From positions 33,809 to 97,808 of the forward strand of contig JAFXQV010000029.1 in assembly GCA_017526785.1 (NCBI GenBank): 64,000 nucleotides of DNA. The letters run 5' to 3'. The notes under the pieces are model-generated. The model worked only from the letters and a program-made list of their open reading frames with translations. It had not been told where the DNA came from and ran no database searches. The position numbers and the translations under genes are program-made. Numbering within the stretch: position 1 is the first letter of the stretch; every line of letters begins with the position of its first letter. Source of the DNA: Oscillibacter sp. (lineage in GTDB: Bacteria; Bacillota; Clostridia; Oscillospirales; Oscillospiraceae). Below are positions 9,872 through 12,160 of the stretch, piece after piece.

Positions 9872-9946
9872 CTGTGTAGAAAATGCTGGAAAATCCGGTA
9901 TTTTCCGGAAAATCCATGGCGATTTGGGCGAAGCTGTCAAAATCTG

Positions 9947-9974
9947 TTGACATTCCGGGCAATCGGAGTATAAT
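9947..9974 (+). promoter_or_regulatory. Promoter of the NhaC-family gene and its leader RNA
   Basis: Perfect TTGACA and TATAAT boxes with a 16-base spacer. The transcript would start near 9981, leaving a leader of about 180 bases before the antiporter gene. Confidence 0.85.
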
Positions 9975-9980
9975 AAACAA

Positions 9981-10146
9981 GGCATGATAGAGGCGCGGGG
10001 CGATTGCTTCCAGACCCGCGCCAGTACGCAATTCCTGAAGCGTGGACAGATGGCGGAACGCTGTCATGATTTCATAAAGGCGCTTCCACGGGAGAAAGGC
10101 GTCTTTGCATGGTGAAGTCATGGCTCTGTCATGACTTCGTTTTTGT
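9981..10146 (+). promoter_or_regulatory. Structured attenuator leader (candidate riboswitch) of the antiporter gene
   Basis: Between the promoter and the gene lie: a perfect 8-bp hairpin GGCGCGGG/CCCGCGCC (about 9992-10022); a long-range stem CGTGGA (10041-10046) with TCCACG (10085-10090) enclosing GACAG/CTGTC (10045-10049/10061-10065); and a strong terminator, GAAGTCATG (10114-10122) with CATGACTTC (10130-10138) followed by GTTTTTG. The 5' arm of the terminator (10112-10122) can pair instead over 11 bp (with G-U pairs) with 10065-10075, whose sequence nearly repeats the terminator's 3' arm. That is an antiterminator switch. The start GATAGAGGCGCG, then AGTA and GAAAGGCG resemble marks of the lysine L-box, which does control some NhaC-type genes, but GCCGAAG and the closing P1 strand are missing, so the ligand is open. 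Confidence 0.7.
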
Positions 10147-10162
10147 TAAGGAGTGAGACGCA

Positions 10163-12160
10163 ATGAGAAAAGTGTCGCGGCGGCTCATGGCGCTGTTGCC
10201 CATGATGTTATTGCTTTGCGGCCTGCTGACGGTTCCCGCGTTCGCCGAGGGGGAGGAAGCGGCCACGAACGCGGCTCTTTACGGCACATGGTGGGCGCTT
10301 GTCCCGCCTGTCATCGCCATTTTTCTGGCGCTGGTCACGAAGGAGGCCTACGGCTCGCTGTTCATCGGCGTTGTGGCGGGGGCGTTTCTCGCCAGTGACT
10401 TCCACCCCGTCCGGACGCTCAACACTATCATTGAAGACGGGTTTATCGCGTCCGTGGAGAGCAACGCCGGAATTTTTATTTTCCTTGTCCTCTTGGGCGT
10501 TGTCGTGGCGCTGATGAACGCCGCTGGGGGTTCCGCCGCGTTCGGGCGCTGGGCGGAAAAAAATATCCACTCCCGCGTGGGCGTACAGCTCGCCACGTTC
10601 CTGCTGGGCATCCTGATTTTCATCGACGACTATTTCAACTGCCTGACCGTCGGCTCGGTCATGCGCCCGGTGACAGACCGCCAGCGCGTCAGCCGTACGA
10701 AGCTGGCCTACCTGATTGACGCGACCGCCGCCCCGGTGTGCATGATTGCGCCCGTGTCCTCATGGGCGGCGGCGGTGTCCGGCACCGCCGAGGACTTGGA
10801 TACCGGTATCAGCGGCTTGCAACTCTTTATACGCGCCATTCCCTACAACCTCTACTCCCTGCTGACGTTCCTGTTTATTCTCCTGCTGGTTCTGCTGGGG
10901 TTCGACTATGGCCCCATGCGCCGCTATGAGAAACTCGCCATTCGCAAGGGCGATTTGAGCGCCCTGCCGGGTTCCCTTGAGACCGAGGACAACCCCCGCG
11001 GGCGCGTCATTGACCTGCTTCTCCCGGTCGTACTCCTGATTATCACTTGTACGCTTGGCATGCTGTACGTGGGCGGCTTCTTCGGCGTGGACTGGTGGGG
11101 CGGCACGGACTACAAGTGGGACATTATCGGCGCGCTGAGCAATACGGACGCCTTTATCGGGCTTCCGTGGGGCAGTATTATCGCCTTGGTTCTGGTCGTG
11201 GCCTACATCGTCTTTCGCGGGTGCCTGAACTTTCAGGAGGCCATGTCCTGCGTGCCGAAGGGCTTTAACGCCATGGGTTCGCCCATTATCATCCTGACGC
11301 TCGCCGTCAGCCTCAAGACCATGACCAACGACAAGCTGGGCGCGGCGGAGTTCGTACGCGTCGCCATGGAGGGCGCGGCCGAACACCTTTACAGCATGCT
11401 CCCGGCCGTGATTTTCCTTGTCGCGTGCGTGCTGGCGTTCGCGTCGGGTACGTCGTGGGGAACGTTCGGTATCCTGATTCCGATTGTGACCGCAATGTTT
11501 CCGGAGAACAACCCCCTGATGATTATCGGCATTTCGGCCTGTCTGGCCGGCGCGGTGTGCGGCGACCACTGCTCCCCGATTTCCGACACCACCATTATGG
11601 CGTCCGCCGGAGCCCAAGTCGAACACATCAAGCACGTTTCGACGCAGTTGCCCTACGCGCTGACCGTCGCGGCGGTCAGTTTCGTGGGCTACATCGTCGC
11701 GGGCTTCTTCCAAGACTTATATTTAACATGGGGGATTAGCGCCATTGTCCTGATGGCCGTTCTGCTGATTCTGCGGATTGCGGTCTTTTTCATCGAACGC
11801 GTCGAGCGGAAGAGGGACGAGGACGAGGCGTTACGCGCCGCCGCTATACGCGCCGAGGAGGAGGCCAAACGCGCCGAGGAAAGTTACTCCCTGATATCGG
11901 AGGCCGAGGCCACGGCCGCGACCGCCGCGCGGGAGGAACCGCCCGCGACGTGGAATCCGCCGCCGTCTCTGACTGCGGAACCCGATTTGACCGAGGACGC
12001 GTCGCCCGTCGAGGAATCGTACGCGCCGCCACCCCAAGAAAATGAATCGGCCGGGGAAACCGCACTGCTGGACGACGCCGAACCGGAACCGGAAGCCGAA
12101 ACGGAATCAGACGTTGATTCCGAAGCGTCCGGGGACAAAATCGACCTCGCCAAGTCGTAA
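10163..12160 (+). CDS. NhaC-family Na+/H+ antiporter-like transporter
   Basis: A 665-residue membrane transporter. An N-terminal hydrophobic segment ending VPAFAEG looks like a cleavable signal peptide, followed by about ten membrane segments with the family hallmark FIDDYFNCLTVGSVMRPVTD (around 155-174), TAAPVCMIAPVSSW, and GDHCSPISDTTIM (around 470). Members of this family move Na+ and H+, and some are proposed amino-acid (for example lysine) carriers. The last 115 residues are an acidic, Glu/Ala/Pro-rich cytoplasmic tail starting with a charged helix (ERVERKRDEDEALR), not usual for the family. The AAGGAG ribosome site sits just after the leader's terminator, consistent with transcription attenuation. 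The substrate is not certain. Confidence 0.85.
   Translation: MRKVSRRLMALLPMMLLLCGLLTVPAFAEGEEAATNAALYGTWWALVPPVIAIFLALVTKEAYGSLFIGVVAGAFLASDFHPVRTLNTIIEDGFIASVESNAGIFIFLVLLGVVVALMNAAGGSAAFGRWAEKNIHSRVGVQLATFLLGILIFIDDYFNCLTVGSVMRPVTDRQRVSRTKLAYLIDATAAPVCMIAPVSSWAAAVSGTAEDLDTGISGLQLFIRAIPYNLYSLLTFLFILLLVLLGFDYGPMRRYEKLAIRKGDLSALPGSLETEDNPRGRVIDLLLPVVLLIITCTLGMLYVGGFFGVDWWGGTDYKWDIIGALSNTDAFIGLPWGSIIALVLVVAYIVFRGCLNFQEAMSCVPKGFNAMGSPIIILTLAVSLKTMTNDKLGAAEFVRVAMEGAAEHLYSMLPAVIFLVACVLAFASGTSWGTFGILIPIVTAMFPENNPLMIIGISACLAGAVCGDHCSPISDTTIMASAGAQVEHIKHVSTQLPYALTVAAVSFVGYIVAGFFQDLYLTWGISAIVLMAVLLILRIAVFFIERVERKRDEDEALRAAAIRAEEEAKRAEESYSLISEAEATAATAAREEPPATWNPPPSLTAEPDLTEDASPVEESYAPPPQENESAGETALLDDAEPEPEAETESDVDSEASGDKIDLAKS

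Follow-up and report, generated by a model that had tools for sequence, protein, structure and literature searches.

What does the leader ahead of an nhaC-type transporter gene in this stretch of Oscillibacter DNA (64,000 nucleotides, hereafter the window) respond to, if it combines a terminator with a competing antiterminator and yet matches no family in Rfam? A sequence-only reading had seen in it either a very diverged lysine riboswitch (L-box) or a riboswitch not yet described, with Na+, Li+, lysine or another ion or amine as its ligand. We propose instead that it is probably a decayed L-box, with its aptamer lost and its attenuator retained. The features that bear on this question are listed below; the window's clade comprises six genomes, the window genome itself (G000) and G003, G009, G019, G052 and G054.

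9947–9974, + strand: sigma-70-type promoter TTGACA-16-TATAAT, 12/12 consensus positions, both hexamers invariant in 6/6 clade leaders.
9983–9990, + strand: 5′ strand of helix P1, CATGATAG, of L-box heritage; pairs with 10061–10068.
9992–10022, + strand: local hairpin GGCGCGGG/CCCGCGCC at the place of L-box P2, 8 bp in the fold.
10030–10061, + strand: remaining ex-aptamer region, from the clade alignment.
10061–10068, + strand: 3′ strand of P1, CTGTCATG, with which the antiterminator also begins; seen in folds and homologous to CTGTCGTG of canonical leaders.
10063–10074, + strand: antiterminator 5′ arm, pairing in the fold with 10113–10124.
10079–10103, + strand: hairpin specific to the clade (z −2.4) that caps the antiterminator; its GGGAG is invariant.
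10113–10144, + strand: intrinsic terminator, 10114–10122 × 10130–10138 (9 bp), then a U-run.
10148–10153, + strand: ribosome site AAGGAG, read from the sequence; AAGGAGTGAG is invariant in 6/6 clade leaders.
10163–12160, + strand: nhaC/lysW-type gene of the Na+/H+ antiporter family, 665 aa (PF03553, 155 bits; cut-off 23).

Much of the anatomy described in the sequence-only reading stands: the consensus promoter, the structured leader, the 9-bp terminator with its U-run before the ribosome site, the local hairpin where L-boxes have P2 and the NhaC-type transporter downstream, the product of which scores 36.5 bits against the TIGR00931 NhaC model, under that model's cut-off of 370. The leader as a whole folds with z −3.4, none of 200 shuffles being as stable, and the same z of −4.6, again with 0/200 shuffles as good, is reached both by the terminator stretch (10105–10146, −16.1 kcal/mol) and by the antiterminator stretch (10060–10125, −28.2 kcal/mol), which contains the competing 11-bp pairing of the terminator 5′ arm that had been described (10112–10122 × 10065–10075). 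A terminator scan returned a single terminator, at 10111–10141 with 14 pairs counted (shuffle mean 0.4), a result that taken alone proves little. By the same measure the 5′ part of the leader (9981–10072) is unremarkable, with z −1.1 and 25/200 shuffles equalling it. Within it, however, lies the P1 helix whose partner strand had been held to be lacking: CATGATAG (9983–9990) pairs with CTGTCATG (10061–10068) over 8 bp, including one G-U, in the fold of 9981–10072, and the 3′ strand of this helix is common to the antiterminator (10063–10074/10113–10124), as is characteristic of L-boxes. The aptamer-like stem proposed earlier (10041–10046/10085–10090) comes down to six complementary bases, which are not kept in the clade leaders compared by eye. 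We also note that 10030–10061 holds GACAG, complementary to CTGTC at 10061–10065, so a local hairpin could hide the antiterminator strand.

Covariance-model searches give this leader no family. At gathering scores no Rfam family matches in the window, and when all 4227 families were taken up to E 10 over 9881–10300, four evidently spurious matches appeared, none of them to the lysine, Na+ (DUF1646), Li+ (nhaA) or T-box (RF00230) families; the L-box, Na+ and Li+ scans that the earlier reading had suggested as a check thus find nothing at the leader even at this permissive threshold.

The orthologous leaders of the genus are more informative. The transporter is present in 78/86 same-genus genomes searched, and an L-box (RF00168) lies upstream of the orthologous nhaC/lysW gene at 44/60 loci scanned, in 44 genomes and at 75–109 bits (9/20, 20/20 and 15/20 loci in the three scan batches), compared with 0/6 genomes of the window's clade at the gathering score of 30 bits. 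Lysine riboswitches ahead of lysW, which belongs to the nhaC superfamily, are described in an earlier study (PMC5584792). Seven of the 16 loci without RF00168 are those of the clade (G003 contributing two). The other nine are L066–L070 (G006, G089, G093, G020 and G022), whose transporters are relatives at about 50% identity; L021 (G071), with a very short leader; L053 (G078), with a short leader that lacks the module; L023 (G047); and L074 (G087). The locus scan covered neither L071, L072, L073 and L078 nor L077 (G048), at the last of which a separate RF00168 genome search places an L-box. In an NhaC tree the window's clade is monophyletic with support 100/100 and is placed among L-box species; this tree leaves out G019, in which the gene is broken up across contigs, and it counts two changes and not one solely since L079, a sheep-rumen Oscillibacter MAG record identical to G054, is unlabelled. 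Judged by their sequences, the orthologous leaders of the genus are canonical lysine riboswitches with an expression platform common to the window.

Two of these leaders are unusual in themselves. Before nhaC in G047 the L-box gives way to an apparent single long hairpin, in which the 5′ side of P1 is joined to the 3′ side of the terminator and after which comes a T-run, and a profile built from the 44 canonical leaders finds no match in it; this is apparently another L-box loss, outside the clade. In G070 (L019, 3253–3462, minus strand) the L-box before nhaC is enlarged to 210 bases, most being about 175.

Searched against the window leader, the same profile of 44 canonical leaders matches 10050–10144 at 35.6 bits (E 4.8e-12, seven leaders making up the search set) and 9980–9998 at 7.0 bits, with nothing between 9998 and 10050. 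What is homologous is the platform and the P1 5′ strand, and what is missing is the lysine-binding core. The platform is also seen in G052 (42 bits), G003 (39), G054 (33) and G009 (12), which with the window makes five of six clade genomes, and G019 yields 6.8 bits at the end only. As exact words, the core motifs GCCGAGG/GCCGAAG, AAAGGGG, GCCGGGC and GACTGTC occur in 0/6 clade leaders, which bears out the earlier remark that GCCGAAG is missing; among the 44 canonical leaders GCCGAGG differs by 0.006 and GCATGATAGAGG by just 0.044. GATAGAGG is intact in the window alone of the six clade leaders. The short texts that had been read as shared with L-boxes fare unevenly: AGAGGCGCG alone sits in the homologous place, AGTA is absent from 3/6 clade leaders, and GAAAGGCG is not the GAAAGG of L-boxes because it lies downstream of the P1 3′ strand, in the antiterminator cap. 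The idea of a very diverged L-box is thus right as to descent, given the canonical orthologous leaders and the common platform, but the lysine core is gone and not just diverged.

How the segments of the leader diverge within the clade separates what was kept from what was not, with the proviso that the segments are short and the comparisons rest on five or six sequences, all from draft MAGs. Mean pairwise differences are 0.04 and 0.08 in the terminator arms, 0.12 in the ribosome-site region, 0.16 in the promoter (0.28 in its spacer) and 0.17 in the antiterminator 5′ arm, and they rise to 0.42 in the P1 5′ strand (9981–9993) and 0.47 in the aptamer region (9994–10048), where 277/550 cells are gapped and both length and sequence vary from species to species; that region is closer between the window and G054 (7/28 differ) and between the window and G052 (20/55). 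The gene itself, in the five clade members where it is usable, shows pS 0.42–0.52 and dN 0.09–0.14 and is therefore under purifying selection. The 9992–10022 hairpin is unaligned in most clade leaders, and 10030–10061 is partly deleted in G054 and not kept in G003, G009 and G019. Such a pattern points to a platform still in use behind a sensor that has ceased to count.

A new riboswitch class, the second of the two earlier proposals, would call for an aptamer conserved among relatives, and is rejected on the clade alignment and on this divergence of 9994–10048. A covariance model built from five clade modules and searched over 86 genomes ranked those five first, followed for the most part by the platforms of canonical L-boxes at nhaC and by weak matches; it missed G019, where the terminator 5′ arm is absent. 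Its best match away from the nhaC locus was G093:C34 (E 6.5e-4), and the six clade genomes hold no second copy at E < 0.01 (best other match G000:C30, 0.015). A regulon of a new module is likewise rejected, the module being single-copy in clade genomes.

In two clade members, G019 and G009 (L075 and L076), the nhaC leader is down to about 75–95 bases. The G009 leader, which lies at a contig end, repeats CATGACTTCA with one copy on each side of the capping hairpin; in G019 both arms of this type are gone, and hence the terminator 5′ arm too, and the capping hairpin is kept.

The loss extends to a second gene. The other L-box of the genus precedes dapA-dapB-dapD and is intact in G003, G009 and G019 (75–84 bits) and in G070 and G071 (69 and 54 bits), and the dapA leaders of the window genome (L198) and of G052 (L199) give no match to it. 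By eye, L198 (minus strand) keeps a promoter and a terminator-like hairpin and misses part of the aptamer of G003, and the G052 leader holds little beyond the terminator hairpin, its contig starting 240 bases before the gene; in G054 the sole dapA found is a 47%-identical relative. A genome search with stricter filters finds no RF00168 match anywhere in the window genome (94.6% complete), G052 or G054. General riboswitch decay was considered and rejected: in the ten genomes examined, TPP riboswitch matches occur in 10/10 (9/10 over cut-off) and T-box matches in 10/10 (8/10 over cut-off), and the loss therefore looks lysine-specific, as far as two compared classes can tell.

The retained platform can be followed across 50 homologous 3′ modules, namely the window, four clade members and 45 others, one of which (L095) stands outside the set scanned for L-boxes. 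The earlier reading had suggested looking for compensatory changes in the stems. The terminator is paired in 98.4% of cells and changes on both sides at 4/10 pairs, which only 2/500 shuffles reach. The antiterminator is paired in 89.6% of cells, compared with 26–48% when slid, and its covariation is not above shuffles, as is perhaps expected because each strand must fit two partners. In a consensus fold of five clade sequences, a small number, no pair of the cap changed on both sides. For whole lysine riboswitches together with their platforms, covariation is modelled in PMC13273304. A pseudoknot between the GGGAG loop and upstream pyrimidines, and a short ORF spanning the terminator, were each dropped since by eye they seemed inconsistent among relatives.

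We also calculated the balance between the read-through (ON) and termination (OFF) folds with the core helices enforced, at equilibrium and with neither kinetics nor ligand. In this calculation the window leader prefers ON by 3.9 kcal/mol, the second lowest value of the 50, and termination is favoured in the 45 other leaders by a median of 3.5 kcal/mol (quartiles at 1.8 and 5.2, extremes at −3.7 and +12.6). G009 is window-like at −4.1, and G003 (+1.1), G054 (+2.6) and G052 (+5.4) lie inside the canonical range; the modelled ON bias is thus not common to the whole clade. We suggest that the window is tilted ON because the antiterminator with its clade-specific cap, which is absent from canonical leaders, out-competes the terminator. 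Once set free in the ON fold, the 5′ strand of P1 (9983–9990) pairs with the terminator 3′ arm (10130–10138), which resembles the P1 3′ strand. A canonical leader, that of G053, shows the same pairing, and the switch may exchange four strands as two pairs.

In standard L-box control, bound lysine lets P1 form and with it the terminator, and without lysine the antiterminator forms and transcription reads through. The ancestor of the clade presumably ran nhaC/lysW in this usual way: with lysine bound, P1 would hold 10061–10068 and the terminator would form, and in the lysine-free state 10061–10068 would pair with the terminator 5′ arm and transcription would continue. We hypothesize that the window's clade then lost the lysine-binding domain enclosed by the P1 strands, with unrelated and mostly unconserved hairpins coming to stand in its place, and that the promoter, antiterminator and terminator were kept through this loss. 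The present leader is accordingly predicted to be blind to lysine, with a fixed level of read-through that is tilted ON in the window genome, and nhaC expression there would be lysine-independent and, on the modelled energies, mostly on. What can be said plainly is that the leader shares descent with canonical L-box leaders, lacks their conserved core and retains their platform, and that the second L-box, before dapA, is lost from the same genome. Several points count against decay: the window keeps P1 exactly, which is unexpected for a fully dead element, the cap persists in 6/6 clade leaders, 10030–10061 is nearly identical in G052, and the ON bias is not common to the clade.

The alternative that survives best, although we consider it improbable, is that the attenuator has been re-fitted, its terminator and antiterminator now serving a new signal (a protein, a small RNA or a ligand) received through the cap at 10079–10103 or through 10030–10061. 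The cap core CGC...GGGAG...GCG is found in 6/6 clade leaders, including the two that are otherwise nearly deleted, and the cap differs by 0.20 where the gene's pS is 0.42–0.52; 10030–10061 shows 3/32 differences from G052 by eye, a segment chosen after the fact as near-identical. A new constraint on the leader is possible on these grounds. Against this, no cap pair has changed on both sides, the module lacks a second site in the clade genomes, the aptamer region varies between species, and G019 keeps the hairpin though its terminator 5′ arm is lost. This improbable reading would mean a riboswitch in the course of exchanging one sensor for another: the aptamer for lysine would have been discarded, the L-box terminator and antiterminator kept, and the clade-specific hairpin would now take a different signal.

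Less likely again is a lysine riboswitch that has diverged greatly and still works with a minimal aptamer. P1 is intact and competes properly with the antiterminator, and the gene is the same as in L-box species; yet RF00168 is unmatched even at E 10, the core words are absent from all six leaders, sister species have let the 5′ strand of P1 drift, and the window genome is also without its dapA L-box. That another known class (Na+, Li+ or T-box) took the place of the L-box, as membership of the gene in the Na+/H+ antiporter family and the T-boxes elsewhere in the window genome might suggest, is the least probable of all, no Rfam family reaching its gathering score in the window or at the clade loci and no such class turning up at the leader even when matches as weak as E 10 are admitted.

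A decayed L-box remains our preferred reading, on which the window leader would illustrate a way in which riboswitches may be lost and would not represent a new kind. Riboswitch loss seems little documented in the best-ranked open-access literature, and among the best-ranked open-access matches on degenerate or lost riboswitches or on Oscillibacter lysine riboswitches this case was not found. Before the same gene, one genus offers working L-boxes, a platform without its aptamer, near-nothing leaders (G009 and G019) and leaders with neither, a series that allows us to ask whether the aptamer is the first part to go and why the terminator stays. There is a warning here too: where a leader has a convincing terminator and antiterminator but no Rfam match, it may be the remnant of a known class instead of a new one.

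The closest known system is the RF00168 L-box before nhaC-type lysW genes, to which the window leader is homologous in sequence and which it resembles in the gene, the promoter-to-gene layout, P1, the antiterminator and the terminator; in contrast, the window leader has neither the aptamer core nor a covariance-model match. In the vanishing of one riboswitch class from several genes of a lineage, the case also resembles the loss of TPP riboswitches in Saccharomycetaceae, as reported in PMC5997356. The clade described here differs in that sister species show intermediates and in that the platform is constrained after the aptamer has been lost.
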